Shown one piece after another: positions 19,868-60,853 of a stretch of DNA of 64,000 bases. Both the position numbers and the translations under genes were made by a program. The notes under the pieces were generated by a model. The model saw only the letters and a program-made list of their open reading frames with translations. It was not told where the DNA came from and ran no database searches. The DNA lies in the NCBI GenBank assembly GCA_017506865.1, contig JAFCMP010000078.1:62001-126000 (forward strand), given 5' to 3'. Positions within the stretch are counted from its first letter, which is position 1, and each line of letters opens with the position of its first letter. The stretch comes from Tribonema minus (taxonomy: Eukaryota > Sar > Xanthophyceae > Tribonematales > Tribonemataceae).

Positions 19868-19879
19868 GTATGATTGTAC
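19868..19879. repeat. Right target-site duplication of the retroelement
   Basis: GTATGATTGTAC, identical to 17075-17086. Confidence 0.85.
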
Positions 19880-22450: not shown

Positions 22451-23533
22451 CTGTTCATGAAGCCACTGCAGGATCTCAAGCTCGCCATTCAGCGCCGCCG
22501 CGCTGCAGGTCTCGTGCTTCTTCGCAAACGGGCACCCGTTGGTGTGCGCCCACTTGAGCATGTCCAGGTGGCCATTTGCGGCGAGAGTAGTGCACGTAGT
22601 TGCGTCCCAGGGGCACCCATTCTCATGCGCCCACCTGAGCATCTCGAAATTACCCTGCTCTGCTATGAGCTGGCTCGTTGTCGTGGTGCACGGGCACCCA
22701 CGGCTGCAGGCCCACTTGAACATCTCGAGATCACCACGGTCTGCCGCGTGCCAGCTCGTGTTGTCGTCCCACGGGCAGCCGCCAGCATGGAGCCACTGGA
22801 GCACATTGAGATGGCCGTTCTGCGCCGCGGCGGAGCAGGCCTCCTCATTCCACGGGCACTTGAGCTCGCCACGCAGGCACCGCAGGACGTCCAGGTGCCC
22901 GTGCGCAGCCGCCTTCGTGCACGCGTCCACTGCGTCATCGCTTGCGGTCCACAGCGGCTGGCCGGCTGGGGCGTTGGCCGCCATCCATCTGAGCACTGCC
23001 ACATGGCCATCGTGCGCCACCGCAATGTGCGTGTGGACGTCGAAGAGCTTCTCCAGGGCGTCCTGTCAGTCTGGAAAGTCCGGCATGACGTGCAGAAACT
23101 GCAGCATCGCCAGGTGGCCCGCGTTAGCGGCCCTGGACAGCAGCGAGCCGGGGATGAGGCACCCCACACCCTGCCGCAGGAGCTCTGGCAGCAGCCACTG
23201 CACCACCTGCAGGCTGCCGCTCTCGACCGCTGCGTAGGCGACGCCGGTGTCCCAAGGACACGGTGGAGTCGCGGCGCGGCACCACTGCAGGACGTGCAGA
23301 TGGTCGCCCGCCGCCGCCGCGGCGGTCGTGCTTTCGTCCCAGGCGCAGCCCTCCTGGTGCAGGTATTGTAGTGCGTCCAGATGGCCCTCGAAAGCGGCAA
23401 CGGTGGCCAGCCTGGACGACATGGCGTCCCAGGGGCATGGCAATGGCTGAGAGCGCATCCAGCGGAGGACGTCGAGGTGGCCGCTGCTCACAGCTGCCTC
23501 GCAAGCTTCAGCGTTCCAGCTGCAGGGCGGGTC

Positions 23534-31921: not shown

Positions 31922-32725
31922 CACTGCTAAGGTAAAACAAACAGAGGCTTCACCATGCATGAACTCTGGTCTGCATGTGTGGCTTGAGAATACTGTACGT
32001 TTCTCTTTTGCTTGTTGCGTTGTGGCGCACATGATGGCTTGCCTTCTCGCACTTGTGTTTGTGCACCAAGCAGCTGACAACACCACTGCACTACTTACAG
32101 GAACAGGTTGCTGTTGCTTCATTTTTTCTAAAAAATATTCAGCAGGCCTGTGCACGCACATTTTGCATTCTTCTTTTGAAATGAAAAATTGGCCTGCGCA
32201 TTGTCCTGTAGAGTATTGTGAAGGGCCGCTGAGCCAAATACATTTGGGTGCTGTAACATTGCTGCATGCCGCACAAAGCAACCTTAAAGCGACAAAATTG
32301 CGCAAGATCCCGTGCTCTCTCTGGCTTTCATTACGTTGCTGATGCATGTAAAACCTTTGGCGCAATCTCATGCTCTCTTGGGCTTGTGCTTATTACAATG
32401 TGATGCATGTAAACCTTTATGTGCAATTCGCAACATTCCACATGACACCACTGCATTCATGCACATGCTTTCGTGTTGTGAGAAAGTCATGAAATTCCTA
32501 TGCCACAATGTCAGTGTTGCACATGTCTACACTCAATGGTGCAAGGAAGAAACAGTGTGAACCGAACCAAAACAATCAGAACAGCACAGCGTATGCATCA
32601 CACTGTGGTGCACAGCACCGGAAATCAATTCTGCCCGTCTCATTGCGTGCCTGTTGCGACAAATAAATGCACTTGCACAGCTGTTGTAGACAGCATGCGT
32701 TGTATGCTCATGCAGCAAAAGCGCA
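31922..32725. other. 3' flank of the giant minus gene
   Basis: No coding exon is seen. On the minus strand TGTAA occurs at 32397-32393, about 330 bases past the stop, a possible polyadenylation signal. Confidence 0.35.
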
Positions 32726-34947
32726 TCAGCAGCACGCGAGCAGCTTTGCAGATGCCGTGCCAGCGCACGAAGCGCACAGCACATGCCCGCAGCGCAGCAC
32801 CCGCGCCTCCGCTGCGCCGCCGCTGCCGCCGTGCTCATTATCTTGACCAGGGCTGCCGCCACTGACGCGGAGTGCTATGTAAGGCGCTTGCAATGCTGCC
32901 ACGTGCGCATTGCACGCCATGCACGCCGTGTCAGGCGACACATCCCTATGGTGACTGTGCCCACGGAGAGCTGACAAGATGGCGTGCGCGCCGGGTTCAT
33001 CACTACGAGCAGCTGCTGTTGCCATTACGGCTGCTAGTGCGGGAGACAGCCGAGGGAAAGTGGGTTCGGGAGAAGACTCTGAGGCAGATGCCGCGCTGCT
33101 GCGCAATGCTGACGACAGCTCGTGAAGGATGGACGCACTCAGCTGCTGCTTGTGCATCTCCGCAGCGCACCTGTGTGATGGTGCAAGAGCAGCAACAAAG
33201 GATATATAGAGTTACAGGTTGTAAGGCGAGCAATAAATGCATCAACTTTGTGTATGCCTGATTAAACTGAAGCAGCACATGGTCACACAATTGCGCTGCA
33301 CTGGCATGACTGATCTGAGAAACGCCATTAAAGATAGAACAGCGTACTATGCAGAAGGACCACTCGAGGAACATACGTTTCAAGATGCACGCATGAAAGA
33401 CCAGGCACCACAAACAATGTGATCCACCTGTCCTCGCTGGCAGGACACTATGAGCATGCTTTGATGCAGTACCTAAGAACGCAAGGCATCACTTTCTGCA
33501 GCGGTACATAGGCAGAGAGCAGTATCCTGACAACACTCCCAAGCACTGGAGGTGTTCAGAGTGCTGATTGGCGTTTGCAGAAGGCAGATGAGAAGTCGCA
33601 AGCCTTGCTGATGCGCGTGCTTCACACAATACGCACACGAAACCACAATTCCGCACCAGGTCATCATGACCAATCAAAACTCTGCGCTCACCTGTCACTG
33701 AGGTCAAACAAAAATGTGTTTGAGACGCCCTGTTGCATTGCCGGCACGGCGCTCACGACCTCAAGAGTCGCTGCTGCCCCTATCGCAGCTGGCAGCGCCG
33801 CCGCCACAGCCGACACATCTTTGTCTGCCTCCACCAACCTCGCCAGCGCCGTTACGAAGTAACCGTCAGTCTCGCCACCATGGTGTCTGACATCACCTGA
33901 GCTGCTACGGGCACCACCATCGCCGCTGCCAACAGCACCGTGGCTGTCATTCACTGCGGCGGCGGCAGCAGCAGCAGGGGGAGGGGATGCCCTGCCCCCC
34001 AAAGCCTGCACCCCCCTGCTCGTTGGCGTCACCGGTGACCTAGCATTAGCATGAGGGCCTGAGGGTGGACTGGCTATGGTGGTGCGTGAAGGCATGGCTG
34101 GACTTGGAGAACGACGACCGTACGAGTGCGTTGGCGGGCTCGCAACAGGACTGATGTGGGGGGTGGTACGGACTGCAGGGGGGCGTTCACTGGCGGCAGG
34201 CGTGGCGGTAAGGCAGCGATCAACCTCCCACAGGGCGTGCAGCGCTGCCGTGAGGAGCTCACTGTCACCGCTGCGCAGCGCTGCTGCGGCTGCCGCCTCT
34301 GCCGCGTCCAGCGCAGCTGGGAACATCAGAAAACAAATGCAAAGCACGAGGAAGGTAAGCAGACAAGGGGTGCCACTTCTGGTGCAAGTTACAGAAGCGG
34401 GGATCTCGCACCAGAAGGCAAAAACTAGGGTACACAACAACAGTTGCAAATATATCAAATGCCATCGCTGGCGGGCATAAGCTGCGGGCGAAAGGAAAAT
34501 GGCAAGCGTGGGTTCCAAGAAGAAGTATTTCACAGGTCTGACCGCAGACTGCAGGGCGCTTCAGAGCACATTAAACGAACTCATGAAATTGTTGCCGTCA
34601 CAAGTACTCACTTGACAGCCGCACGAATACAAAACGCGCACAATCAAGTTACCTAAGCTGTCCCTCATCAAAGCAGCATGTCTCAGCAGCAAGTCTCACC
34701 TCGCAGCATCGTCACTGTGCCGGCTGAACAGGTTGCAGCGGAGACGCGAGCGTCGCCGCCGCAGCAGCAGCACCGCGACAGTGCGACACACGCCTCAGGT
34801 ACCAACTGCCAAGCGCCGTGCTGCTTCAGCGCATCCAGAAGCCAGCCGGCGCCTAAGGCTGTGCCAAACGGAGCTTGCGCCCAGCGAGATAAGAGCGATC
34901 GCGCTGTCGCCATGTGCATTGCTGCAGCTGCCGGGTCCGGTGCCGTG
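32726..34947 (-). other. C-terminal exons with RING-like zinc motif
   Basis: Exons 34947-34700, 34316-33692 and 33170-32726 join in phase. The first two hold helical Ala/Leu segments (WLLDALKQHGAWQLVPEACV) and a Ser/Pro-rich linker. The last has TACMACNAHV, a Gly-rich loop, then RVLRCGHVLCASC, i.e. C-x2-C ... C-x-H-x2-C-x2-C, but the final C-x2-C pair of a RING is reduced to LLACC at the stop. It is either a degenerate RING, a different zinc fold, or another exon follows. Confidence 0.6.
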
Positions 34948-37900
34948 CTACGGGGTTCCAAAAAAAGAGTTGGCCAGTTGGTCATGTGGTGCCGGTACAG
35001 TCAAGGCATTTGAGAGACGCGGCAGAAGATGGGAGCGACTGTACAGCTATCAGGTGCGCATAGCAACGTCCAGGTTGGTGCCATGCTGCAAGTGTAAAGG
35101 TGTGGAATCAGGGACTCGAGTGAAGCAACACCATAACTGCGTCAGAGACAATGTGCAGTATTAGAGCATCAGAACAGCACATTTGCTGACAGTGGCTGCC
35201 CCATGCTATGCTGAAGCTTCCAAGCGCGGCCGGAATCTGCAGATCGTGGCAGAGGCAGAATTTGCATTTACGTATTGACATGAAGCATCATTTTTCAAGC
35301 AGCCAATGTGTGGCGTGCAAGCTGTTGCTTACAAGGGAATTATGCAGGAAACTGTGGACAGACATCGATGGGACATGAGTACTTGGTGGTATCCTGCACA
35401 CTGCACAGGACGTCACAGACCACAGCAAGACACCATTTCTCAACTCATCGCGCATACTCACTCAACCTGTTCGCACGTCTGCAGATGGCGCAAGTACGCT
35501 GACTGCTGTGTCTGACAAGTTTGGACGTCTGCAGAACTAGCTGCCGGGCTTTGGTGCATGTCCATCCATGAGTTTCACAGACAGCTATCTCCCTGCACTT
35601 CTTCAACGTACCTCTGCAGCTGAAGCGTGAGGCTGATGCAGCGCTGCACCACGTGTGCGTCCCTCCAGCAGTCATCAAGTGACGCGTCTTTGCCAAGCAG
35701 CAAGGCACGGAGGTATGCCTGGAAGGCTGCGCGCTCAACAGACAGAGCAGATGTACTTCTGCATGTCAAGTGCGATTTATATGCACAAAAGCAATTGGGA
35801 TCTGGTATGATGCTGGTGGCAACGATGCGTGTGGCAACGCATGCGAGGCCACCAGCATCACAGGCGGCCTCGATAACGTCATGAATGAACGCGGTAGACG
35901 TGTTGCGCCGTGACACAGCAGACAGCAGGCACGTCAATAGCCAACGAGGCCATTGAACAGGTGTGCACTGCCTTTTAAGTCGCCCGGCAACAGGCGCACT
36001 CGGAAGTGCATCACACACCAATTACAGATGGAAAAAGCTAGTTCCACCTGCATTGTGAATTGAGTTTACAGCCGCTTTAGCAACGCAGAATGCAGATTGT
36101 GCAAAGCGGGCCTTCATGCGCTGGCACTCAAGTGCATTTATGAAAAGCACGGCACCTACACACCTCTCTTTAGAAGCCACAGGCGAGGCAGCGTCACACA
36201 CAACCTGTCAGAAAGCGCACTGCCGCACCCTGGCGCAGTGTACGATTTTTCAATAGCTCACAGTGTGAGTCAATCCATCTTTCGTGGCGCAGAACGGTCA
36301 CCAGGTTATGATTTTGCAGAGCAAATAAACTAGCAAGGTGCGTGTGTCTTTTGAAGGCTTTGTAGGCATGATAGAACAGGCGCACCTTCGTCAGCTTGTC
36401 TCCGCGCGAGGTTCCTGGCACCGCCATAGATGGCTTGCCAGACAGCCCATGGCCGCACATTCGGGAAGTGAGCCACCGCCGCAGCAGCGGCCGATGGCGC
36501 ATGCCACTGAAACAGGCGCGACAGGCTCCTTAGGCAGACGCACAGTAGCGGCAGACTGGAAGGGGCGGGGGGAAGGGGGGGAAGGGGGCAACAGCAAATG
36601 AGCAGGCAACATTACACTAAGGCCAATATATTATATTTATGGTCCCCCGCTTGGACTTGCGTGGGGCAGTTGGCGGTACATGCTGCGCAAACTCTGGTGT
36701 TGTGGACATCATGACTTGAGTATGCGGAGAAAATAAGGTACTTTAACTAGCATGTTCTCACACACCCAGGCGCCATGTTAAATAACCCCCTTGTGTAAGT
36801 GGAGCCAGGTCATTGACAACTACAAAACTCGAGAGATCGAGGCCGTAGGCAATGACAGAGATGGGAGCATGCAAGACGGGCTTTATGATGACAGCTGCTG
36901 TAGTGACAGTGTGGTTGGCACACGCTGGCATAGCACTGCACTTTTGTTACCAAGCCATTTTGTAAACAAAGAAGCGTGCCTCCTTTCGCTTGAAAGTCAA
37001 TGCTCATGCTGCAAAACCACCCCTGGACGTGACAGTGACTGCAATGAAGGCCCACCCTTGCGATGGTTAGCTGCACAACGTGTGATCATGCAGCGCCACC
37101 GAAATTCCAATGACACGTTCACTTTAACACCATCGCTCAAGCAACTGGTTTAGTAGTTTGGGCACACTCTAACATTAATGTTCAACTGAGTGATCCAGTG
37201 TTGACACTCTTAAAAACGACATGGTTATGCCAACATGCCTTGCCTCACCTGTTGGACCCCTTTGCCTGCACTTGGCGTGGATCTAGCATCCGCAAGGCCT
37301 CCTGAGACATACATGGACAACAGTGAAAGCATCCATCGCTTGAGGCGCGAATATGGACCAGATGTGCCTTATTAAGCCGCCCAAGAGGCAGGCAGTGTTA
37401 TGTTCACAACCAGCGCAGTGACCATTAATCCGCGCAAATGCAGTGCTCCAACAACCGCTGGACACGGTGTACTCATAGAATGCCACAGCACCTGCATGGG
37501 TTTTGTTAAAATAACTTGAACAAGACAAACTTGCTAACAACGGCAGCCTGCCATGGATGACGTGCTGGCGTACACATTGTTGTGGTGCTCTCACTGCTTG
37601 CGCGGTGCACTGATGCACTACCAGCAACTACAGGTACTGAAAAGCCTGCTGAAAATGCATGCCATCGCACAGCAAGCGTTGTGGCGGACTGAGAAATGAA
37701 CGCCAGGTCCAGATTTATAGCGAACTACGCCAGGTCGTAAGCTGAGTTTACGGTATGTAGGGCGCAACTATATCTGAGTATGTTGTAGTTGAAGCCGAAC
37801 ACGCAACGTGCCACGTAATCTGGCATGCCATCAGAAGTCCATCGTCATTGGGCCAAAGCCGACGTGTCATCATTACAATGTGGCCGAAGGTATGGATCAA

Positions 37901-40900
37901 TGGGATTATCTGGTTTATCCTGGTTTATTGAGCTATCTACTTGGTGCCAAAAACCTGTTGGCCCGCTGTGTCGTGAAATGGCTAAAGGATCATCGCTGTG
38001 CTCTTCGCTGCATTGCCAGCAATAGAACAGCCACCATTTGCACCAAAACGTGACGAATACGTTTGTGAAGTAGTGCCAGCATTGCCGTGAAGCATTCTGA
38101 TTCGAGGATCTGCAGGTGCCTGCAGTAATCGTGTAGCTCAAAGCAGGTGAGCAAACCCTGACGGACCTGAAACACCTATCATCTTCGCTCACACAATTGC
38201 TGCTGCTTACGTGTGCTGTGCTGCCACCAGGCTCTAATCCTAACCCTAAACCTAAACTCTCACTAAAACCTATCCCACTTCCTAACCCTATCCTTGATTC
38301 TTCCCCTTACCTGAGGGGTGCTGTCATCTGGCTCCAGACCTGCGCTCTGGTGCTTTTCAACCGCCGCCAGCACCTCGCCATCTAAATGCTTGGCAGCTGG
38401 GTCTTGGACGACGCTCGAAAGCACCTTCACGGGGGTCAGTTCACAAAATCACAAAAACTCAGCCGGTAAGATCAGAAGATGTGCACGCCAGGCATAGGCA
38501 GTAGGTTGATGCTCAGCTGGAGGTATGTGCCATAAGCTTCATGTGCGGCTGAAATAGCAACTCTGTGGTATTGCGCCAATTCACAGTTGCACTGCTTTAA
38601 AACAAAAAGAAGGTAAAGTGATGTGGCATCGAAATGTCACTGTGTGTCAGCATGCTGACATAAGCCGGCCAGGGCACAAGTCATGCTTTGTCCTGAGGTC
38701 CTGAGTTCGCTGTGCTGAAAACGATCTTCAAGAGTCTAAAGGTAATTGGTCGGCTGGGTCATCTATCCGCAGGTATTTTCGTTGCTAACATGAGGTGGAT
38801 GTAGTAGGCGTTAGATGCAATCAAGACAGTGGGTAGTTTATCAAGCAGCTCAATATGCACGACGAAGCATGCCTGCCGCCGAACAATGAGGGCAAAATCG
38901 CCATGCAGACAAAAGACGACCATGATTACAAAATACTCACATCGTTGCATGTCGCTTTATCAAATTTACACTGTCTTTGTTCCCTTCATACGCTTTCCAG
39001 GTACACAGTGTGAGCTGTAGCACACAAACACAAGGCTACTTTGTACAATGCAGCAGTACCTGGCCGAGCAGCCCACTCATTTCCCTGGCACACGCAGCAG
39101 CAGCGACGGTGTCTGGGTGCAGATGCTGCGCATAGCGTGCGCTGAATGACATGGCATCAGCCTCGTCCCACTGCAGCGACACGAATGCAGCACCAGTGCA
39201 GCGCAGGTTGCACAGGCGTTGTAACAGAGATGGCGCGTTAACTTGTTGCACCGGTACGAGTGCAAGTGTTCATACCGGTTCTAACGCGTAACCAGTGGCC
39301 CGCTGCGCCGCACGCGTTAACCGGTACGTGTAACTTGCCGTGGGAGGCAACGCGTAAACACCCATCGGTCCCGCAGCTGATAACTTGCGGTACAAGTTAA
39401 ATGCCCGTCCACTTTATTCTGTCGGTGCTCGGTAGTTTTGCCGAGGGAGAACAAGGGAACACATCAGTTATGGTTGGTAGCGACCGATGGCGAGCGATGT
39501 TTGCCACTTCTTTACGGTTGAGCAGCTCGAAAAGGCCTTCTAGCTTTGAGCGGTAAGGTTAGAGTTCGTGGAACTATGTGTCACGCTCGGCTGCCTGCAG
39601 AACACAAGTGCCAACACCAAGCAGTGCTGCACAGCACGCGGCTTTCAGCTTGATGCGTTCACTTCGTGAGTTATTTGCAGAGGACAAGCTGTGCTGGCAT
39701 GCTGCTGCTGTGATGTGCCGCACGCTATGCATATTATGCACATGCACTTTTGTGACATTCGCGTGCAAATGCGTGCCCACCTCTTGCAGCCATCACACCC
39801 ATGCCAGTCTTGAGTGAGTACATGAGCGATGAAGTTTGCATGACATGAAGACTGGTAGGCCTTCCAAATAACTGGTGCAGCTGGTGAAAACTTGTTGAAC
39901 CAGTAATAACCGGTGCAACAAGTATACGGGTACCGGTTGGCACAGCTCACCAGTTAAACTTGTACAGGTAGCCACAGCTACAAGTTTTGGAAAACTCGTA
40001 CACGTACTTGTCAAAAATTTTCTCGAACTACGCGCGACCGGTGCAGATGGCACTACGCGCCATCTCTGCATTGTAATGAGTGACTAATTGAGTGTGGGAC
40101 ACGTGCAGACATGGACTCGAATCTGCGACCTTGGCAGGTTTATTGTTGCCCTGGTCGCGGTCAAAGCTCACAATTACTGCTGATGTGATGCGTGATTGCG
40201 CTGCGCCAAAGCACGCATCAGCTGTCGCGCACTGCTGAGTTCGCAATGTGCAACCTTACAGACTTCACAGTATTGGGGCTGGTGCACCAGACGCTTCCTT
40301 GTCCGCTGAGACTCACTTCTACAAGTCTGCTGGCCTGATTATCACAAATGAGATAGGCATGTCCTTCTTCTGCTGGACATTCACCTTCCAAGTTTGCTGG
40401 CCTGGTTGTCATAAATGAGATAGGCAAGTGTGCCTAGACAAATTCAACCTTGCATGTAAGCATTGCTGTCCCAGCCTCACCTCATCAGCACCAGTGCAGC
40501 CGCTTGCGCTGTACTGATATAATACGATTGACATTGATTGAGCGCCAGAGCTCTTGAATGTGCCAATGATTATCAATGGGCAACGCCACTCACCTGCAGC
40601 GGCGGGGTGGAGACGCCTGCATTGCCCCCAAACCAATCCATTCTGAATGCAACGTAACCGCCATGACTGGCACCGTCGTCGCTGCCGTTGCCGCCACTGC
40701 TGCTTCGGCCCTGCGTGCGCAACACAATATGATGAAATGTGAGCCATTCGCTTACGTTTTGATGCCATGGCAGGTCCTGAGATAAAATTGGTGACACGCC
40801 CGAGACCTCAACTTCCGGTCACCGCTGTTATGCTAGCCAACTGCAGATGTCATGGTAGCAGACTTGTGCAGGGCACATACGTGGCATTGAGCATACTGAT

Positions 40901-43900
40901 TCCATTGATTTTGGTATTGCACACACTTGACCCCGCATCCTGCACAAATGGTTGCGCCTGGAGCTACTATGAGTAGCATGAGCCTCACCATTACATCCAT
41001 GATATCTGCGTTCCAGTCAGCAAATTGTGATATGCTTTACCTTTCACTGTCCTCGTGACAGCTTCAGTTACGCTGCCAACAACAGACAAGATACATGACC
41101 GATGCATTCGACACCAATGTTATTTGCAAGACGTAAACACTCACTTCCACGTGGTATATTGAACCAAGACATTGAAGTAGACACAGAGTAGGCATTATGC
41201 ACCTGTTCAGCTGCCCCGTAGGCCCGCCGCAGAAAACCATACGCCGTGCGTAGCTGAAAGTACGCCGTCACAAGCTCGCTGGTGACACGTGTCAGTACCG
41301 CACGTTCTTCAGCCGCTTCATCCTCTGAATCGCTGCCAAGACCCCCAGTAGGGCCCCTCTTGGCTCTGCGTGGGGACTTGGCTGGGGCCGCTTCTGGGGT
41401 GAAGGTTTCAAGCCAGGCCTCGAGCAGAGGGGCTAGGGGGGCAGGAGGGGCCAGGGGGTCTTGCAGCATGCAAGCTGTCGCAACTGCACGTGGCACAAGC
41501 AGCAAGTAGAGCGTCCAGGTTTCAAAGCCGTGATGCGTGCTGCAAGAATGGAGCAGCGCGTGGTGTAACGCGCCATGACTCACGAGCAAAACACACAGTT
41601 TTTAAAGCAAGCGTCGACGAGAACTACGCAGCATGTGCCAGGGTGCCAGAGGTGTGCCCCATTGAGTATGAGCCCGCGACCGCAGGCGCGCCACTGCAGC
41701 AGCAGCAGCGCACACCTAAGACAAGCCTGCGGAGCCTGAAGGGTATTGATATGTAGCCCTCGCCTCTTGATGCATACTGATGTCCGCTTGTCGCTGATTG
41801 TGTTCAGCTTGCACTGTCACACTGCAGCATAATCCCACAAATATGCTCCACATACTCCAGGCAGGCACTGAGTCCAACCATATGTTGTTTGCATGACGAT
41901 CAACGATGTGAAACATACCTGAATATGTCAAGTCCAGCGGAGGGAGTGGGGGTAGGGGGCCCCTGTGTTGTTTGCTCCCCTTCCTGTCCCCCCTACCCCC
42001 CTTGAGCCCCTTGCGGTCCCCTGGCTCAGCGCTTTCAGGGCTTAGGGGATTGGCGCGTAGCTGCAGCAAAAGCGCACAGGGGCACACCGCAAAGCAATTA
42101 AGGAGTCACAGCCCTGATCTGATGTGTTTCACAGCAACGCTTTGCACAAATCATGCAACGCCTGGTGTGAATTGGTGCACGTCCGTGTGTGTTGGAGTTG
42201 AAATCTAAGCATAGCCAGCAGTGTGCAATAGCAGCCATCCCTCATACAAACACTGGTAAAAAGTTATATGTGGCCCGTTGTAGACTAGGGTTTGGGGTTT
42301 CATGACCTCCTTGCTTACTTTGCCAGCCTGGCTGGGCGAAAGAGTAAAATAGGGTGGCGCACAATCGCACAGTTCAAGACATGCACAAAGACACGTTCTA
42401 CAGACATCGTTGCTCTGCGTGCATTGATGATTAACTTTGCGGTGCTTCGTTGCTTCAACCACTGGATCAGCGCCATCATCCGCAGGTGCAGCAAACCTGT
42501 GCCAACTAGGTCTCCCTTGGCATACATTCGTACATCATGCACAGGTCAACACTCACCAACACGGCAGCAAACGTCGAAGCAAGAGAAAAGTGGAACCCAA
42601 ACTGGGACTACAGAAAGAGACAAGAGACCTATGAAAACTGTTGATTTAGGGTCAGGGTTCAAGCATGTCCCTGAATCCCCCAAGCAAGCTTTACCCAGAG
42701 CATGCTCTTTGCCGCACCAGCTGATGATTAACCTGCTATCACTTCAACGTCATGAGAGTTGTCACCATCTCATTGCACAGTTGGTGCACAGCTCACCTCT
42801 GCTGCGATTCCCTTGGCGGCAGCGATCAGGCCCTCCGCAGCCGTCACGGCATCGTATGCAGCGGTGTCGCTGTCTTCGTCCCTGTCACAAACATGACACA
42901 GCAGCGCTCAGCATGGAACCCCGCTGATGGTTGCAGAGTATGCCACCTTGATCATCTGAGTGCTACTTACATTTGGGTATTTACAGTCGATGGATCAGGC
43001 AAGTTACCAGCAGTCCTCTTAATCGTCAGGACCAGTCAAGGTAGGGTCACATGAAGATCGAGCGACATACGGACAGCCTCCACAAGAGGCCCAATTGCTG
43101 ATGCGGCAGCACTACAACCATTCACCTGACGAACGGCTCCCATATATACTTGTGTGTCGTTCTCAAGGTTGCTCCAGAGCACATAGCAAGTGCTCCATAG
43201 GTTTGGGTCAAATCGCCAGCAGCGGAAAAGTGGCTATGGGGTTGGCGGCTGGTATACAGTAACTTCAGATTGTGAGGGAGGTGCAACCTAATTTCATGTT
43301 AACGACAATCTCATGTTGGAAGGTATTATTAGTTAAAAATGTGTCGGACTTTAGCCGGCACTGATCCCAGAAACTCGCAGAAAGTCGCAGTTGACTAACC
43401 ATATCGACCGACGCTGACTGCAATTGGCTATGACTGCCCGAATTGGCAAAAATCCTCCCCTGGAGCTCTTCAACGTCAACGACCTCTGAGGCCATCAGCA
43501 GGTCTTCAACGAAGTCCCACATGGGCACCTGCCACTATGACACTACTGATCAATCATGCGCAGCAGGACAGAACTGCCACTTACTCATGAACTTTTTGGA
43601 AAAGAGTCTCAAAGTGCATTTAAAAGGGCTCGTCAAGTCCGACAATCTGAGCTACTGACCACAAGCAACAAAGTGAGGTCTCTAAGAATGTTTCAGACGC
43701 GCATGCTCATTTGTTATTCACTGCTTCCACTGTACATACCTGTCTGCTTGCAGGTCCAGGGGCACGGCCTCATGCAGCACGTCAGCAAATGGCTCATCGT
43801 CATCCTCATCGCTGTCCTCCCATGCAGACGAGGAGGGGTGCTCCTCAACCCCCCGCTGCTGCGCGCATAGCAGGCAGCGACAGGCAGCATGTGAGTGGCG

Positions 43901-49900: not shown

Positions 49901-52900
49901 ATTTGTTCAGCACTATTAGCGTCTGCTGCTGCTGTCAGTACCAGCTTTGCACCGTGCAGGACCTCCTCGTGCAGATGCTTCATTCAATCTGCCAACTTGA
50001 AGTTGCCAACCTGCCGTACGCATGACACTTGATACAGATCCTACAATTACTGCAGCACGTTCCTGTAGGCAGCAACCCCTTCTGCTGTGTGCGTCATACC
50101 CATAGTGCTCAATTTCTTGTCATGGTGTCACTCATCCCCAGCTTCAAGACAACGTAAGGTGCCTACAAATTTTGCCCTTATGACCGCTTGTTCCCGCTTT
50201 CAGCACTAGGTTATTGGAGAAATAATCTAATGCAGGTGCACAGGTTGTTCCAGTTGTTTGTTGTAGCGACGTTGCATGACATTTGTCCCACACACAAAGC
50301 AGGTACAATCTACAGCCCCCCCCCCCACTCCTCCCCACGGTTGGCCATGCCTGCTCCACCTTGCCAGATGCTTGAATCTGCGATAAAGTCATGGTCACAG
50401 TACAGGTGTTGTAGTACAAGAATCACTTATTATGTCTGCATCGTACTTCGAAGTACTGTTGTGTACAGCTATTGCATTGCGCACTCACCGCTTGATGCCG
50501 TACATGCCGTATGCAAAGATGAACTCGGACCCTGCAGTCCCCTCCTCTTCTTCCAGCCCCTCATCCCCCCCCTCTTCCCCCTGTCCCTCCTCTTCTCCCC
50601 CAAACTCCCCTACCTGCCGCGGAGCCGTTACCGCAACGGGTGTCGTGGGAGCGGAATGAAAAGTCGGCGTCGCCACTCCTGGCTGGGAGTTGAGCTGTCT
50701 GTTTGCCTGATCGTCGCTGTCGCTGCTGCTGCTGTACAGCTCTCCCATGCCGGGCTGCAAGGCCTGCACGTGGTCACATACAGGAAGTAATATGGAGAGC
50801 AGTGCGCGGAGGCATGGAACTATGAGGTGAGTTGCAATTCAGAGGGCTGATCACTACTGCTAGCTGCTCCTTCACGGCGTGCCTGTGGCTTACTAGTCAC
50901 AAAGTCTGCATGCGACCTCAGTTAGAATGACAAGTGAAATGTGCTGAGAACATGATTTTCTTGGACAGCAAAGCCCTGTTGTAGCATGCATTCCCAAGCG
51001 CTGTTGCAACAAAAAAGCTCGGGCTGCAAGGCCTGCACGGTATGGCAGGAACAACCGCCTGGTCGCCTTAATAAGATTCGAGGTCAGTTGGTGAGCTATT
51101 CAAGCCTATCGCAAAAACTCACAATGTGTGCTTACCCGACGCTTCTAGAGCACAGAGAAGCAGAGCTATGGTGTGCCTCTAACAGCCTGCCAAAGGCATC
51201 CTTGTGTACTGTGTTCGTCTTAGGGTTAGGGGTAGGGTTTACTACAAGCTTGTGCCCGCCTGCTTGATGATCAACACCGCTGCTGCTGCTGTTGCTATTG
51301 CTGCTTCTAGTCATGGTCAACGCGAGTCACACCCGCAGCAATGTCAGTGACGAGGGCTACTATGTCTGGCGAAAGCTTCTGCGACACGTTTCAGCAATAA
51401 GAGCATTCAAGTCCAGGCTGTTACACACTTCAACAAGAAGAGTATGCGTGTGCAGCACACATCTCGCCAATGGTAGGACAACTTCAAAGACTACGGTTTT
51501 TTTGCCAGGGCCCTGAATCATGATTAGCAGATGGTGGCATGCAAGGCGCACTCAGCGAGGTCGCACAGAATCCCGGAGACACAATTGAGACCTCTTATCA
51601 CTGCAGTTGTTCATTTCTTGAAAGCGCAGCAAGACGCAGCGTTTTGAGTGGACACCATTGCAAGCGCCAACGCCCAAATCACTGTGTGTGTGGTTCCAAT
51701 AGGCGTCCAGATGGAATTGTCTCACTGTCGCGAGATAACTGTGTGGCCTGCTGCTGAATGCGCTGTGGGAGTAGGGGTAGGGAGACCCGCAACTCATGAC
51801 CCACACCGGCTAGTGCCCGCTGCTGACACACTGACGTATGCACAAACACGGCGACCCCCCCCCCCCCCCCCCCCCCTCAATACACGTGTGCGGCGAGTTA
51901 TACGTCAACGTGGATCTGCAGCTTGGAGGGTCGCACACAGCACCATCCTTGTCACAACATGCTGAGGTACAGCACGACAACGTATCGTACTGAAGCTCAG
52001 CCAGTCGAACCTGTCACACGCCAATGTCGTGCTAGGATGGTAGGAAAACCACGCAGCGTGGTTTGGAACGGCGCGGACGTGGTGCCGTGCATGGCGATTG
52101 GCACCCTTGTGCCAGCCAAGCGTAGGTGGGGAGTATTGCCAGCGGTGCCAGCACACAGACGGGGCGTAGCGCAGCGGCTGCCGTGGGCAGTCATCGTCGC
52201 ACGTGCGCTGCCGTGCGCTGAGCTTATGCACACATGTTTAAAGTGAGTGCTTCGGATATCACTGAGTGCGCGCATGCCAATGGGAGATTGCTGCGCACGC
52301 GCGCTCGAGGTTGACAGCACCTGAGCGTTGTGCACACGCTACCAAGGACGGTTGCCTATGCGCCCTGGAGGTTGCTCGGCGCTGCTAGCCAAGCCATGGC
52401 CCGGCCCAGTGGAGTTGATGACCAAGGGGACTCAGCGAGAGTGCGCGCCAAGTGTATTGCAGACACTGCAACCATAATGGGTCAGGTCCACTGCTGAAGA
52501 ACCAAACGTCACCAAGGCCAGGCTCATGATCGAGACTGCAGGCACCCCACAAAAACCAACTGCCGCTGCTGTCACGTCACTCAAGGCCCTGCATCCATGC
52601 TGGGTGTCTACCATCTACAGTCTCTATAGCGCCTACGCTTCAAGAAGCATTGGCCGTGTACTTGAAGAACGTATTCGGTCGTCAAGGCGCGTAAAACCCT
52701 GCCGCAGAGGCCCAGGCCTCGTCGCACAGTTCCTTGAGTCCGGAAGTTGCGGGGACCTGCAACAGCCAACACCCGGGGGTACAGTGCGGTTGAGCGACTG
52801 CCCGCCCCGCGCGCATGCTGCAGGCTGGCATGCGCATTGAACTAGCTGCAACTTCAACCCAGGGGGTACTGTCCTCGCACGATGGAACTGCCACTTTGCA

Positions 52901-55900
52901 CCCAGACCTACAAAGCAGCGGGCTGAACCCGTTCATTGCAGGTCATCATATGTGTGGGACTTCAGGCGCTGTATCGAAAACCAGACGGCAGGGGCCGCAG
53001 TCTGCCGGAATGAGCAAGCCTGGACTTCAATACCTCAAACTTCCTTGCGGCCTTGCAGAGTGCCCTCATCAGCCAGTACAGTGTAGCTGCATCTGCCCAC
53101 TTAGCAGACCAGACGGTGTCCTGCATGCATGCGTTCACTTCAACTTAACCTCCCCAAATCAACCATTCGAGGAAGGATCGACTGCAATTCTGGTTGAACC
53201 GCCTGCGCTTGCACTTCCAGTTACAGCAATGCTCAGCAATGAGCACAGCTGTGCGCGGGCCCCACATTTTTCAAAAGGTATGTATTGATTTTGAAAGGGC
53301 TTGGTGGACTGCCTTGCGCGCTTCTGCAGACACGCAGCTGCGTCAGGTGGAGCAGCGCAGCTGCTGAGTTGTTTTGAGCGCTGCACCTGAGCGCTGCTGC
53401 ACGGTACTGCTCTCGCCCTCTCCACTCGTGAACATATGCATTTGAGTGGCGCGTGCAGCTTCTCAATTATGATGGTGTCCAGCCCACTAGGACATCCGCG
53501 CAGCTGATGCAACGCGCAGTTATTTAGATGATGAATTCCAAAATCTGCAGTCTCAAGCATCAAACTATGCTCATGGCAGAAAGTATGCTTGACCGCCTGC
53601 AGCACAACACCCTAGTACAATCCTTACCCATACAACTGTACTAATCTGCCCAATAGCATTCATAATACTGTACTAACCTGCCCCATAGACTTGGCCCAGC
53701 TGGCCAGCAACCCAAACGCCGTGCCGCCCATGCCCCCTCCCCCACCCGGCGAACCCGCGCCTCCCGCTGCGCCGCCAACAGGCGCTGAGCTCTGGCGGCG
53801 ATGCCTGCCGCTGTTGCCGAGCGCTGCTGCTTCTCCGCTGCCACCATCGCCATCCGCTGCCGCCGCCGCTGCTGCTACCGCCGCTGCTGCCGATGGCGGC
53901 GTCAGCGGCGCCCCTGCTGCCGCCGCTGCTGCCGCGGGTGCGCGGTCAAGCGGCCCGGTGGCGGCGGCAGCGGCGCCTTGCTGACCGGTGGCGCGAGGCA
54001 CGGCAGCAACGCTCGACACGGAGGCCAGCGCGCTTGTGTACTGGTCGGAGACCTCGCGGATGGCGCGCTGCGTGGCGGCGTCGCTCGCGCGCATGCGCGT
54101 CTCCAGGTCATCGTCGGCGCCATCACCGGCCTGCGCGATGACATCGCAATGAAATCATCATTGTCCTCGTGTCATTCAACTGCGGTGCGTGAGTTCGTCG
54201 TGTCATGCTGCGTGGCGGCGTCGCTCGCGCGCATGCGCGCCTCCAGGTCGTCGTCGGCGCCCTCGTTGGCCTGAGCAGTGACATACGTGGTCATGGTGTC
54301 CTCGTGTCAGTCAGTTGCAGCAAACGGCGTGTGAGTTCCATGCGGGGTGCTGCGGAGCCTCCATGCGCACAGCGGCTCCTGAGAGCCATACGCTGAGGCA
54401 ACGCCCTCATCAGCCTGCGCAATGGCACACATTGCCATTGTCCTCGTGTCGGTCCGTTGCAGCAAGCGGCGTGTGAGTTTGATGCGTCGTGCTGCGGAGC
54501 CCACATGCGCGCAGCGACTTCTCTGAACTGTACTCTGCGTTGCGGCGCGAACGTGACAATGGAGCAAATTATGATGCCCACAATTGGGGAGTCGTGAGCC
54601 CCCTGCCCGTAGCTCGTGCGATGACAGCAGCATTTGTGCCCCGCGCCAGGAGACGCATTGTAGACATCAGCAACGCAGACACGCGTTGGCGCTTTGAAGT
54701 GCGCAAAACGGCGCGCTTTGATGACAGCGCTCAGGTCGCGGGAGCGCGGCATGCGCTCCATCTGCAACATCAAGTTGAGCAATGCAACAAGGCACATTCA
54801 AGACGCCGCAGCCTCACCCAACCGCCAGAGTTTGCCCCACTCTGGGCCACACAGTCTGCCGCACAGTTCAAATGATGAGTATTGGGCCACACTGTGCAAG
54901 GCTTTCTTTTCACGCTGCTGCTGTGATGCGCGCGGCATTGACACCTCAAGGCTGTGATCAATTGTCGCGCACAGATTCACTTGCGCCGTGCAGTACGTCA
55001 AGGTCTCTCATAATGAGCATGGCACAGCAGCCTGACCTCACAGTCACTGCACTCACAAAGCGTGCGAGAAGTCCGCAGAAAAGCTATGGCAACAAGCACA
55101 GCAGCTGTTTATGCTGAGGGGCAAAGCAGCGCTCACCACTTGCGCTGCGGCTTGACCGTCCCCCTGCCCCCCCAGCGCCTCGTGTGTCGCCAGCACCAGC
55201 TGCTCGACCTCCAGCAGCAGTGACGAGCTGCGCTGCCTGTGCCCCGGACTCAGCTCCCCCTGCCCCTCCTCCTCCTCTGCCGCCGCCTCCTCTTCCGCCT
55301 CCGCCGCCGCCGCCGCTGCTGCCGCACCCTCTGCAGCTGCGGCGGCAGCGGATGCGCGGAGGCGGCGGCGGGCGGAGGGGGGGTTGCCAGTTGCAGCCTC
55401 GTCCGAGCTTGCAGTGAGCGCTGCCGCCTCATCGAGCACCGCCTCCGCGCCGCGCAGCGCGTGGTCGCTGGCGCGCCGCAGCGCCGTGACCTCCGCCGCG
55501 TGCGCCGCCGCTGCCGCCGCCTCCTCCTCCGCCGCTGCTGCGCCGCCGCCGCTGCTCCCTGCCGCCGCCGTCGCCGCCGCCGCCGCTTCCGCCGACGCCT
55601 CCCCCGCTGACGCTGCGGACGCGCTGCCGCCGCCCGCACCGCGCAGCTGCGGCGGGGTCACAAACGGGTTGCCGCTGCCGCCGCCGCCGCCGCTCGCCTG
55701 CGGACTCCGCTGCTGCGGCGGTGACGCGCCCCTCCTGACGGGCGTCACGGCCTCCCGTTGCTGAGCGCTGCCGGGGCTGGCGCCTCTCAAATCCCCCATG
55801 GGGGGCGTCGAGGGGGGCTCAAGGCCCAGGTCGCGCAGCGTGACGAGCAGGCGGCTGACCATGCCGCGCCCGTGCAGCGCGTACGCGCAGAAGAACGGCG

Positions 55901-58900
55901 GGTACACGGGGTCGTCGTCCACGGCGCCGACGGCCGCGAGCGCCGTCACGCCGCCAGTCAGCTCGCCGCCGCACGCGCACACCACCGCGTTGGCGAATGG
56001 GTTCACGAGCACGACGGCTGCTGCGGTGGCAGCGGCGGCGGCGGCGGTGGTTGCTCGCTGTGACGCGCCTGCGGCAGTGGCGGTTTCGCCTCTGCTGCCG
56101 CCGCCGCCGCCGCTGCTGCTGAGGCCAGTGCCTGCAGTCCCAGCGCTGCTGGTGCCGGTGTCAGCTGTGGTGCTGCCTGATTCTGGTGTTTCTGAGGTGG
56201 ACGCATTAGCGCCTGGCACAGCGACGGCAACAGTATCTGCACCGCTGGCAGCGTCCGCAGCGGCAGGAGACCCTCCAGCGCCAGCATCAGCGCTTGCGTC
56301 GCTGCTGCTGGCGGTGCTGGCGCTGGCGCCGGTGGCAGGGGCACTGGTGTCGGCAGCAGCCGCGCTGTCGCCATCAGCGGCATCAACAGCGGCGGCGCTG
56401 CTGCTGCTGGTGCCTTCGCCAGCAGCAGCAGTAGCAGGTGGAGCGTGTTCGCCGACAGCAGGTTGTGCACTCGCTGTTGCAGCAGCGGCGGCAGCGGCAG
56501 CAGCGGCGGCGGCGGCGACGGCAGCAGCAGCGTCTTCATCATGGGGAACCCAGCTCAGCAGAGGACCGCCCTCTATGAACGGCAGTAGCAGGCCCATATT
56601 GACCTCTGGGGCGGCGATGGCTGCGTCGAAGGGGTTGGTGGAGGCTTGGAATCGCGGTCGGTGGGTGGACTGCAGAAGTTGAAGTTGTAACAGACAGCGC
56701 AAGGGGGGAGCGATTATCATCATGCCGCATGTAAATGGCAACGCATGACGTGGCGCATAGGTGCGGCGACGCAGCTCGACATGCGTCAGTATTATGAGGT
56801 AGAAACTTGAATCAAGTTCAAGTATGTGTGTATGAGGCACTATGTAGCTCACACCTGCGCCTTCTGAGCTGCCAATGACTGGCAGCAACACTGCTCCCCT
56901 TGCACGGCACAAGCGCTTGGCGACGGCACGTCACATGTGACTTCTGTCAACTTCAAGATTTCAACTTCAACACTGCATGCGAGCGGCACGTCTCACCTGC
57001 ACCTCCCCGTCCGCCAGAGACATGCACCAGAGGCGCCCCCCCGGCTGAGACACAAAGGCTTTTGTGGGCACAACAGGGGGTGAGACCCCCGTCTCATCCC
57101 CCGCCCCATCGCCCCCTGCCTCTGGAAGGGGTCCCCACAAGCAGCCGCCGTGGGTGAGGGGGGCCTTGCCAGCTCCGTCAATGTCCACTGGCCGCAAGTC
57201 GAGATCCACAGCTGCGGGGGCGAGAGTACAGAGGTGAAGCGAAGACGTTGAATGCATTGGAGGTGAAAAGCGACAGCTTCGAGGCGAGTTGATGTTGTGT
57301 ACATGAAGTTCCAGAAATGTGAGGTGCAACGCGTTCGAGTTGGCGACATGTTCCGTGTCCCCGCCCCACTGTCCAGCCTCTCCCGCAGGGGTAGCTGCTT
57401 TTGAGTACAACGAGAAAAATGTCTTGCCAATCAAATGTCAGAAGGGTGCATACGCAATCCCGCGGCTGCCGATGACAAACACAGACATATGCAAGACATC
57501 AACAGGCATTGAGTGTACGGCATTGGGTACAAGAACACGAAGTTGAGTTGATGCAGCTGCTGAGCCTTGCATACGGGGTCAAGGGTGAGAGGTCAGGAAC
57601 GATTCCTGCAATCGAGCAGGGATGGTCCCCAAGTGAGTGGATTGCTGCTTGCGAGCAGGGACAGATGATGTGAAGTCCTCAAACCTAACCGTAGACCTAC
57701 CCAACGCTAAAATTCAACAACGCGGACAGCATACACAGCAGGTTGGCACATCCTTTCACTTGTCATTTTGTCATGCGAACTTGATCTCGCTGACCTAGCC
57801 CTAATCTAGGGTTGCTACGTCTAGAGCTCAGGGATGTGGCCAGCATACACAGCCGAGCAAGCACATCTTTCTTCACTTGTCGTTTCGTCGCAAGACTTTA
57901 GCCCTCGTCACTCACTCAGACACAACAACCTGTGACGGAGTGCGCCGCCACTAACCCTGACCTTAACCCTAATTCTAACCCCAACCAAGGAACAAGTTGT
58001 ATGGGATGTATACATAAATGCACTCGAGACGACCCTACCCTAGCTCTAACCCTACATATAAGTCGCATGGGATGCATACATACCTGCACTCGCGACGACC
58101 CTCACCCTAGCTCTAACCCTAGGAGCAAGGTGCGTGGGATGCATACATACCTGCACTCGCGACGACGTCCCCTGCGCCCGGCGGCGCGGGCTGGTCGGGC
58201 GGCGGCCGCGTGCTGAAGTACAGCAGCAGCGCTCGGCGCGGGGACACCACCAGCAGCACGTCTCTCACGGCCCTGTTGTAATTCAACAAGCAATAGGCAA
58301 GTCAACAAAAGCAATTTGAGGTTCAACAAGCAGCTCAGGAGAAGGTGCAGAGTGCGGTGAGATGCGCGGTGCGCAGAGCAGAACGACCGAAAAACACCAG
58401 ATGTGTGTTAATCATCACGGTGGATGAGCGCTGGTGCGGAGCTGCGGAGCAGCAGCGCTCAGCATGGTGCTTCTATCGCGGGTCCTCACAATCTCTAGAG
58501 GTAACTACACAGGCACGGATTGAGACAAATCATGGATGTGGCACCCCAAACATGTGCAGTGCTTGGAGGCAGTCATGTGACAAGCAAGACTGCTGGGGGC
58601 TGTCTGCTGCACTGCAGTACGCATTGCATGCGCAGAGCTGCAGTAACTTCTCTGCCTGATGCCTGGTGTCTTACACATGCAGTACTGCTGTAGCTGCTCG
58701 GAGAACAGCAACAGTTCTATAAGTATGATATTCCTAGCACCTGCATGCGAAGAGCTGCAGTAAATCCACTGCAAGATGCCTGGAGTATCACAAATTATCA
58801 CACATTCAGTACTGCTGTAGCTGCTGGGAGAGCAACAGTTGTCTATGTATGAAAATCCTAACCTTACTGACTTCCATGCACCACCCATCAATTCCTCTAC

Positions 58901-60853
58901 TTCAGCGTTGTCAAACCCTGACAGCAGCACCATGCATATTGCCTACACGTCTACATTTAAAAATCAGTGCTCATCCAGTACCTACAGTACAACTTCAATT
59001 AAACATAGGCCTCGACAATCACTATTTATGCCCGCTGTGAGAATTAAAGGCGCTCACACACTTTACTTGGGAATATCAGTGAAACAGTACAGAGTCCACA
59101 GCAGTGAGCACAACCTCTAGGCACGCTGGAACGCGCCACACACAAAAGGCATGTATGTATGTGACCACAGGATACCTACCCAATGCCCCCAACCGACGTC
59201 GCCACGCCCTCCCCCCAGTCCAGCTGCACCACAGGAGCCCCCTCTTTAGCAACCACCATAGCCCGTGCCCCCGACCCCTGCCCCGCCCCCTTCCCCAGCG
59301 CTAATGCGAGACCTGCGACCAGAGTGCTAGACTGGCGCGTGTGATTCGGGGAGGGGAGGAATGCGCTTACAACAGTTCCTCCGGCACACGCCGAGAACAG
59401 TCTCCGCTCGTCGCGGCTCCACCTGCAGCGGACATACAGTTTTGGGCACAGACACCATTGAGAGTTTAACGAAAACGATTCAAAAGATTGTAGAGCTCTA
59501 GGTGACAAGAAGTGGTTAGCCGCAAGTGCCTTCCACCAATCTAATATACGGACAGCATCCATGATTATGTGATTAGGTACTGTTGAGGAACTTGGGATGT
59601 GCCACACACATAATAATAAGGCATCAAGGCGTCGACACGGTCCCGCTGCTACAGCACTGCACAAGGCGCCCCTTCAGCGACCAGCAACTTCAACTGACAC
59701 CATCAGGGCGCTACACACCGCCACTTCAACTTCACCTCAGAGCGATGACATCCCCGCCCTGATCACCGCCACCGACCCGTCCGACATTGTCCCACTGCTA
59801 CACCACTGCACAGGCGCCCCCCCCTCAGCAGCCATCAACCTCAACCGCCACTTCAACTCACCTCAGCGCTGTCACCGCGTGCGGCGCGTGCCCCACGTAG
59901 CGGTACCACACGCTGGCGCCCCCCTCCGCCTCCGCGCGCGCAAACGCGCTGAGCGATGACAGCCCCGCCCTGATCACTGCCACCGACCCATCCGACATGC
60001 CCACCGCCAGGTAGCCCATCGCGCCGCCACTGATGCGCAGACACGTCACCGCTGGGATGCGCTGCGTGGGGTCCGCAAAGCCGCGCGAGGGGTAGATCCA
60101 TCGCCGCAGCTTCAGGCTCGGCGGCAGCTCCTTCGCGCCTGGCGCGTGGCGGTTTGTGGGTGTTTGAGGGGGGGGCAGACAGAGCGGTGAAGGGTCAGCA
60201 GTGCCGTCAACAGCAGATGAAAGCATGCGCACGCAGCCAAGCGTGTGGCCTTGCCACTTCGCAGTGATGGGATGCTGCAGTTGTACAAATTTGCCCATGT
60301 TCAATGTGTTGCATATACATATGTATGTACATGTGGGCACGGACCACATTGAAACGATGAAGCCTGGAGGTGTGGTCGAAGTTTAAGCAGCGGTTCTCAG
60401 CATGCCAAGTGGTGCCCGAGAGGCAATCGACACGTGTATATCCACAATAAAGAGTGAACTTCCATCAAAAATATGTTATCAGAGCAAACTTGCACACTCT
60501 TTGCTGCTGCTGCTGCTGCTGCTGCTCTTGCGTGCATGCAGGATGTGCCAGCATCAAGTTGTCATACCACTTGCACATAAAAGCACAGATCGCCGAAAGC
60601 AAAGGGACACCATTTTCGGCACAAAAAGAGTTCAGCAGATCACAATACACAAATGCTCACCTGCTGCAGCACTATGCGCAGGGGGGGTGCGATCCGCCCA
60701 CGAGTGTATATGTACAGCTCCGGTATTTGTGCCACATGCAACAAAAAGCTTGGAGGCCGATATACACTGATAGGTAATGGGTGGTCTCCTGCCGCCGCTA
60801 CCGCTCGAATATGCCGACGCAGGGCCAGGCAACAGCAGCACCTCTGTCCGCAT
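32726..60853 (-). CDS. Giant HPS5-like propeller-PDZ-RING protein, about 31 exons
   Basis: Exons (minus): 60853-60661, 60138-59862, 59422-59180, 58272-58151, 57211-56997, 56669-55137, 54130-53678, 50754-50489, 49871-49682, 49047-48958, 48561-48464, 47854-47808, 47054-46963, perhaps a 23-nt microexon near 46900, 46412-46254, 45909-45821, 45088-44901, 43858-43740, 42881-42797, 42060-41919, 41483-41203, 40710-40594, 40513-40481, about 39235-39060, 38424-38311, 37301-37249, 36555-36386, about 35990-35612, 34947-34700, 34316-33692, 33170-32726. Nearly all junctions match in phase; unresolved ones are before 39235 and before 35990. The N terminus resembles HPS5, a BLOC-2 subunit in trafficking to lysosome-related organelles. 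A PDZ domain lies near residues 1150-1235 and a RING-like motif at the end. It starts at MRTEVLLLPGP beside a divergent promoter. One gene is inferred from phase continuity; two adjacent genes remain possible. Confidence 0.65.
38225..38300. repeat. Degenerate telomere-like tract in intron
   Basis: Runs of CCTAACCCTAAACCTAAACT type directly downstream (minus sense) of the donor of exon 38424-38311. Units are irregular. Confidence 0.5.
39225..40068. mobile_element. Second hAT-like element, 844 bp
   Basis: Terminal inverted repeats of 14 bp (CAGAGATGGCGCGT left, reverse complement at 40055-40068) with a 7-of-8 flanking duplication: CGTTGTAA (39217-39224) and CATTGTAA (40069-40076). Ends starting CAGAG and an 8-bp duplication fit hAT. 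Subterminal parts repeat ACCGGT, ACAAGT and TAACGCG motifs in both orientations. No transposase was found. It abuts the 5' edge of a coding exon of the giant gene. Confidence 0.7.
48228..48445. repeat. About 121-bp diverged tandem duplication
   Basis: The block from TACCACACGCTTGCCGTTGA (48228) recurs at 48349 with scattered changes; both contain CAGACATGCA and GCTGCCGCTGTTG. It lies in the intron just after PDZ exon 11. Confidence 0.75.
48464..49871 (-). other. PDZ domain encoded by exons 9-11
   Basis: Three exons in phase spell a complete PDZ fold: GLGINLQITGVK (the carboxylate-binding loop, GLGI in place of GLGF), VRVGGFAPAANGAM, LSGIISVGDVLL joined to GVNGRDLTLMRFNDILGVLR (the GD-x-LL-x-VNG signature and the alpha-B helix), and KEGTVTLRFAY. 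PDZ domains bind C-terminal peptides of membrane or scaffold proteins. Animal HPS5 lacks one. Two of the three exons have no ATG. Confidence 0.85.
49575..49711. repeat. Three 45-bp tandem repeats carrying a splice donor
   Basis: Units 49575-49619, 49620-49663 and 49664-49708. On the minus strand each reads about ATCACTGGCGTCAAA then GTAAGT/C. The donor in the third unit is the one used for exon 9; in the middle unit GTAAGT is ATAAGT; in the first it is GTAAGC. Confidence 0.85.
50755..53677 (-). other. 2.9-kb intron of the giant gene
   Basis: Bounded by donor GTTAGT after GGGCAG and acceptor CTTGCAG (or GTGCAG nine bases earlier). Several open frames exist but none has exon-like composition with matching splice sites; a missed small exon is possible. 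Confidence 0.5.
51855..51876. repeat. Homopolymer C(22)
   Basis: In the 2.9-kb intron between exons 7 and 8 of the giant gene. No exon was recognised elsewhere in that intron. Confidence 0.9.
54131..54540. repeat. Tandem array copying the acceptor and 5' edge of exon 7
   Basis: On the minus strand a GCGCAG or GCTCAG acceptor followed by GCC-AAC/GGT-GAG-GGC type sequence occurs at 54415, 54271 and 54131, about 140-144 bp apart. The copy starting 54270 repeats some 60 bases of exon 7 (GADDDLEARMRASDAAT) and then runs into TGA after about 33 codons. Only the 54131 acceptor leads to the full exon. Confidence 0.8.
57930..58160. repeat. Tandem array of about 66 bp copying the donor of exon 4, with telomere-like units
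   Basis: The block GGGATGCATACATACCTGCA and following CTCGCGACGAC appears at about 58006, 58072 and 58138. The rightmost contains the donor of exon 4 (minus sense GTGCAG then GTATGT). The middle copy keeps the same donor; in the leftmost it is mutated. Between units lie CCCTAGCTCTAACCCTA stretches. Confidence 0.8.
60502..60526. repeat. (GCT)n microsatellite
   Basis: About eight GCT/CTG units in the first intron of the giant gene. Confidence 0.85.

Follow-up and report, generated by a model that had tools for sequence, protein, structure and literature searches.

An exon chain on the minus strand

Within the window, i.e. the whole stretch of 64,000 nucleotides that was analysed, a chain of 27 exons was modelled on the minus strand, starting with an ATG at 60853 and closing with a TGA that ends at 32726. 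The joined exons comprise a frame of 6381 nt, which codes for 2126 aa without an internal stop, with all joints in phase and GT..AG introns throughout (26 introns of 327-2923 nt). Phase-consistent splicing on one strand over 28 kb had been claimed in the initial annotation and was recovered here, and the two end points proposed for it proved to be exactly the TGA and the ATG.

A scan that used splice scores and codon usage only, and no phase, returned both ends as modelled for 14 of the 27 exons (2, 4, 5, 7-13, 15-17 and 20). Exons 3, 6, 14, 18, 21, 22, 24, 25 and 26 were found in part or with a different end, and exons 1, 19, 23 and 27 were absent in the frame of the model. Since the exons and ends missed by the scan were set by hand, in the case of many downstream exons with phase and similarity considered, the agreement in phase over the complete chain arises partly by construction.

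When consecutive exons were chosen without phase, 13 of 17 joints on the minus strand fitted at a threshold of 13 (p 3.4e-4), 15 of 23 at a threshold of 11 (p 0.0017) and 10 of 13 at a threshold of 15 (p 0.0016), where the p values assume a null of 1/3 per joint and ignore bias in intron phase. The plus strand showed a fit of 4/6, 5/11 and 2/4 (thresholds 13, 11 and 15). For the section leading from the propeller via the PDZ to the acidic exons (42700-58300), 11/13, 12/14 and 8/11 were determined at the same thresholds, the 12 of 14 joints at threshold 11 corresponding to a p of 8.2e-5 under the same null. Between 32600 and 60900, 18 splice-delimited coding exons with a score of at least 13 were counted on the minus strand and 7 on the plus strand, compared to 0-7 in the controls (n=20, Markov-1 resampled). 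The splice weights were fixed at values generally expected for splice sites of green algae. The codon model, which was trained on exons of other loci in the same genome (kinase, kinesin and PDZ), favoured the frame of the model in 24 of the 27 exons, with exons 1, 23 and 25 as exceptions. It made use of 63 of the 69 fetched loci; four of the six loci left out hold stops in or near the match.

A TGTAA, a possible polyadenylation signal of the green-alga type, lies at 32393-32397 on the minus strand, 329 nt beyond the stop. As a candidate signal it is weak, since the motif occurs 17 times per strand in the 28.3 kb from 32600 to 60900.

At the start of the introns after exons 2, 4 and 9, the end of the exon before is partially repeated in tandem, together with its splice donor (59740-59862, 57959-58166 and 49571-49711, respectively). 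In the intron before exon 3, a segment of 70-75 bp (59466-59540) matches at least 40 other places in the genome with 91-97% identity. Among five flanks that were read, four have a longer sequence in common on one side, and the fifth contains the last part of it, which suggests that the segment is a piece of a dispersed repeat. Except for this short repeat, which lies in 56600-60200, no second copy of 56600-60200 or of 48400-50800 was found in the genome, and two scans gave no relatives in viral contigs.

Propeller and PDZ domain

The N-terminal part is encoded by exons 1 to 6. Exon 1 (60661-60853) holds the start codon and the first propeller blade (SKLFVACGTNTGAVHIHSW); it was placed by hand and shows the lowest codon score of all 27 exons. 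Exons 2 (59862-60138) and 4 (58151-58272), both propeller, were given by scan and model, and for exon 3 (59180-59422, WSRDERRLF to VVQLDW, the latter at 59215-59232) the scan gave the 3' part and the start was set by hand. Exon 5 (56997-57211) contributes the propeller stretch GGRLWCMSLADGEVQ, with GGRLWCMS at 57018-57041 and LADGEV at 57000-57017, and is connected by a phase 0 joint to the STH of exon 6 (55137-56669). The latter, which the scan returned as two pieces sharing one frame, comprises the last propeller strands with an Ala-rich insert of 171 aa, followed by a low-complexity linker.

With the 171-aa stretch of exon 6 (84% A, G, S, T and P) omitted from the query, Beta-prop_HPS5 (PF23756) matched the N-terminal part with 40.4 bits compared to a cut-off of 34 (E 2.8e-10). 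It was the best of the 7 families listed, the next one being WD40 with an E of 0.00097. For an earlier, rougher model 32.3 bits had been determined, which lies below the cut-off. In the six-frame Pfam search of the genome, Beta-prop_HPS5 gave no match, probably because the exons are short; the joined exons do match.

All comparisons with human HPS5 refer to a typed copy of the human sequence. The score of residues 1-400 against it was reached by none of 300 shuffles, and the stretches GRLWCMSLADGEVQSTH and FVSQPGGRLWCMSLADGEVQSTHR align with it. The top blastp HSP (model 331-364, human 237-269, E 0.009) involves exon 5, and a third one (model 107-229, human 89-187) showed an E of 1.4. When the segment containing the final propeller strands was compared by itself, it was not above chance, as 129 of 200 shuffles scored as high. 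The profile match supports the HPS5-type propeller that had been claimed initially. A PDB search with the propeller resulted in 14 beta-lactamase matches with an E of 0.055 or worse, which were taken as chance.

The propeller is followed by the linker of exon 7 (53678-54130), whose frame stops at 53662 if the donor is not used, and by an acidic linker in exon 8 (50489-50754). The PDZ domain, likewise part of the initial annotation, was found to be complete over exons 9-12, from QYIARLD and GLGI to GTVTLRF. Exon 9 (49682-49748) contains its start (QYIARLDASKGLGINLQITGVK) including the carboxylate-binding loop GLGI, exon 10 (48958-49047) its middle, exon 11 (48464-48561) its end (GVNGRDLTLMRFNDILGVLRALP...GTVTL) and exon 12 (47808-47854) the final residues together with linker. 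Compared to the PF00595 cut-off of 23.2 bits the match is borderline, with 23.7 bits for a short query and 22.8 bits, just under the cut-off, for a longer one.

The PDB matches of the domain were led by nNOS (E 1.7e-4), Par3 (5.3e-4) and InaD-like PDZs. With these scaffold-type PDZs it shares the GLGI loop, GDVLLGVNGRDL and the segment of the alpha-B helix; it differs in sitting in an HPS5-like protein and in a Phe at the position of the nNOS Tyr. This position is presumably alpha-B1, and a Phe at this point suggests that hydrophobic, class II-like ligands may be bound. The genome holds nine further PDZ matches, and for seven of these (L004 and L008 left out) pairwise z values of 13.6 (L005), 11.9 (L003), 8.9 (L009), 5.6, 2.5, 1.6 and 0.9 were obtained. 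Since the L005 PDZ is an uninterrupted frame and the alignment passes both splice joints of exons 9-11, the splicing of these exons is supported independently of phase. Several PDZs of the genome exceed the Pfam cut-off (L001, L003, L005 and L009), and three of them (L003, L005 and L009) closely resemble the one in this gene.

C-terminal half and zinc motif

Downstream of the PDZ, exons 13 (46963-47054) and 15 (44874-45006) were given by scan and model, in a frame favoured by codon usage. For exon 14 (46254-46300) the acceptor was picked for phase, the best acceptor of the scan at 46319 being out of phase. Exons 16 (43740-43858) and 17 (42797-42881) are acidic, and the hand-placed exon 18 (41919-42060) is linker. 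The C-terminal half begins with exon 19 (41203-41474, CMLQDPL...LLEAWLETF), which was also placed by hand. It continues with exon 20 (40594-40710, scan and model), exon 21 (38311-38424), whose weak acceptor was set by hand, and exon 22 (37249-37301). Exon 23 (36386-36555) was placed by hand, and the starts of exon 24 (35612-35726, AYLRALLLGKD...) and exon 25 (34700-34947) were set by hand; for exons 23 and 25 another frame is slightly better by codons. Exon 26 (33692-34316) was returned by the scan as two pieces in one frame, and the hand-placed exon 27 (32726-33170) carries the C-terminal zinc-knuckle motif (Cx2C...CxHx2Cx2C) and the stop.

The Pfam family TPR_HPS5 (PF23758), which covers residues 721-1100 of human HPS5 with 632.9 bits, showed no hmmscan match to the C-terminal half at an E of up to 10, and its single match in a scan of the genome lies on another contig (E 4.86). 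Since this family is not matched, the protein is called HPS5-like and not HPS5. With the human sequence, phmmer gave 0.9 bits. The second-best blastp HSP (model 1595-1667, human HPS5 846-922, E 0.67) falls into exons 23-24. The best 3 of the 12 HSPs listed are collinear and flank the PDZ, with an E below 0.01 for the propeller one only, and the other nine break the collinear order.

Against shuffles, the similarity in the putative solenoid was equalled in 28 of 300 cases for exons 19-25 and in 34 of 300 for residues 1408-1820. Exon 23 alone gave a z of 3.0 at the collinear place 846-876 of human HPS5, a score reached by 4 of 300 shuffles. Exon 19 maps collinearly to 624-644, no better than shuffles. 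Good scores were also obtained at non-collinear places of the human protein, by exon 25 at 22-101 (z 3.7) and by exon 20 at 498-516 (z 2.4), which calls for caution against over-reading the scores of single exons. No similarity to human HPS5 beyond shuffles was detected for residues 1013-1407 with the PDZ and the acidic part (153 of 200 shuffles as high) or for the last 211 residues (89 of 200).

The final 65 residues contain CMAC, RCGHVLCASC and a terminal CC, i.e. C-x2-C, 40 residues, C-x-H-x2-C-x2-C and then CC at the end. Of the C-terminal RING-like motif in the initial annotation, the CGHVLCASC (32765-32791) is thus present, but a classic RING is not: the closing Cx2C is missing, so that the eight zinc ligands do not occur in RING order, and all RING profiles listed remained below the cut-off, the best one (zf-RING_5) with 17.5 compared to 27.9 bits. 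AlphaFold2 on exon 27 alone, run without an alignment, gave a mean pLDDT of 43.3 and was uninformative.

It is very improbable that this motif represents an active RING E3 ligase domain. The match of CxHx2Cx2C to RING positions 3-6 and the E of 0.0042 of zf-RING_5 on the isolated stretch would speak for such a domain, but in the larger context the E rises to 0.71, and in place of the final Cx2C there is only the CC at the very end. The ligase activity initially considered possible is not supported by the sequence, since the last two RING zinc ligands are missing and no RING family reaches its cut-off.

Number of genes and possible function

The exon chain, the family of the propeller and the PDZ can be regarded as established at the sequence level, and the unity of the gene as likely rather than proven. 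We consider it probable that the locus holds one long minus-strand gene, whose product would be an HPS5-like subunit of the BLOC-2 type that carries a PDZ of its own. The single gene of the initial annotation is supported by phase and strand as well as by codon usage and a weak collinearity with HPS5, whereas a crude ab initio gene finder preferred three genes (199.1) to one (188.9). One of its breaks separates exons 6 and 7, and the other affects the PDZ, in that exons 9-10 were omitted and a gene started inside exon 11; the latter break is contradicted because the PDZ homology runs across it. With relaxed splice costs, one gene of 118-119 mostly tiny exons resulted, forced or not (448.0, 452.0), which is uninformative. 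Self-training led the gene finder towards numerous tiny exons rich in GC, and this version was dropped.

The main alternative, which we regard as unlikely, is a break between exons 7 and 8. It would result in two genes on the same strand, the upstream one comprising the HPS5-like propeller and linker and ending at the 53662 stop past exon 7, and the downstream one starting at the Met of exon 8 and coding for a PDZ protein with the acidic linker, the C-terminal half and the zinc knuckle. The frame of exon 7 indeed meets a stop 16 nt past the donor, a TGTAA follows at 53225 (437 nt beyond this in-frame stop), none of the other introns is as long as the one at this point (2923 nt) and exon 8 has an early Met. 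However, the donor of exon 7 has a score of 6.2, which is reached about once per kb on this strand, and the joint 7/8 is in phase. The TGTAA carries little weight, given the 17 occurrences of the motif per strand. The region is split by the crude gene finder, but at other points (6/7 and within the PDZ), and although no TPR_HPS5 was detected downstream, the second-best HSP to human HPS5 lies downstream of the PDZ at a collinear place.

Rather improbable is also a separate third gene, or a partly wrong prediction, from about exon 18 to exon 27. In this case the zinc motif would be part of something else, and the protein with the HPS5-like propeller and the PDZ would be shorter. Codon scores are indeed negative for exons 18, 19, 22, 23 and 25-27, and two of the three exons that prefer another frame (23 and 25) lie in this part, in which most exons were placed or adjusted by hand. 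On the other hand, each joint is in phase through to the stop, the donors of exons 18-26 score 4.4-8.7 within a range of 3.9-8.7 for all 26 donors, and the second-best HSP to human HPS5 is carried by exons 23-24.

For the single HPS5-like gene, the predicted product would begin with a beta propeller, followed by long linkers of low-complexity and acidic sequence in which the PDZ is located. The C-terminal half would be divergent, presumably a helical solenoid, and would close with a zinc knuckle. With HPS5 the protein shares the N-terminal Beta-prop_HPS5 and the aligned propeller stretch, and tentatively a linker followed by a C-terminal half in the same, weakly collinear order. It differs from HPS5 in its length (2126 aa compared to 1129 aa in human), the PDZ in the linker, the 171-aa Ala-rich insert in the propeller, the zinc knuckle and the lack of a TPR_HPS5 profile match. 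As assumed initially for animal HPS5, neither a PDZ nor a RING was among the 13 Pfam families listed for the human protein as typed. In titles and abstract starts, including those on HPS5 in Chlamydomonas and on HPS5 combined with PDZ, no report of an HPS5 with a PDZ was found.

Work on BLOC-2 has mainly been done in animals. A review describes HPS5 as a part of BLOC-2 together with HPS3 and HPS6, and BLOC-2 as helping to steer endosomal tubules to lysosome-related organelles (PMC12493267); another paper describes HPS3 and HPS5 as structurally similar to propeller-plus-TPR transport proteins (PMC9674347). In the genome, HPS3_N (PF14761) and HPS6 (PF15702) were silent, but they were equally silent in 14 control genomes, and PF23756 also gave nothing in the six-frame search. 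By analogy, the algal protein may act like HPS5 in BLOC-2, as a propeller-plus-solenoid tether that would guide endosomal carriers to organelles resembling lysosomes, for which acidocalcisomes or the vacuole may be considered. The PDZ could provide an additional site at which a cargo, a SNARE or a partner protein docks with its C-terminal peptide.

The C-terminal RINGs of HOPS/CORVET subunits are thought to help subunit assembly, and the zinc motif of the algal protein would most likely aid assembly as well rather than ubiquitin transfer. Vps41, Vps8 and Vps11 of HOPS/CORVET presumably share the plan of propeller, solenoid and C-terminal zinc or RING-like motif. Here, however, the propeller profiles of these subunits rank far below that of HPS5 (10 bits for PEP5_VPS11_N, and Vps41 and Vps8 propellers unlisted at an E of up to 10), and the zinc motif is incomplete. 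In a bolder and less likely reading, the protein could be viewed as a BLOC-2-type tether with its own peptide receptor, the PDZ fused into HPS5 taking the C-termini of cargo or SNAREs as direct ligands, and with a zinc knuckle that would be the remnant of a RING shared with Vps41 and Vps8 and lost in animal HPS5. If this were true, HPS5 would form a bridge between BLOC-2 and HOPS/CORVET. An algal HPS5-like subunit with a PDZ would offer a genetically testable system for the partner choice of a tether, and a way to ask whether the C-terminal zinc domain is ancestral.

The algal origin assumed initially agrees with the genome: 92 matches to chlorophyll a/b-binding proteins (E 0.001 or better), together with kinesin matches that are split into many exon-sized pieces, point to a photosynthetic eukaryote. 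Elsewhere in the window, a 907-aa open frame at 17168-19888 on the minus strand matches reverse transcriptase with 28.5 bits compared to a Pfam cut-off of 29.6. Ankyrin-repeat frames are located at 28898-31629 (plus strand) and 22409-23065 (minus strand), those on the plus strand converging on the 3' end of the gene. Two-copy tandem repeats with a 100% match lie at 15368-15794 (213 bp) and 24971-25164 (97 bp), which indicates a very recent origin or an effect of the assembly. Kinase matches agree in E-value, score and frame length among contigs C144, C223 and C278, and nearly agree between C90 and C179, which suggests that parts of the assembly are duplicated or uncollapsed.
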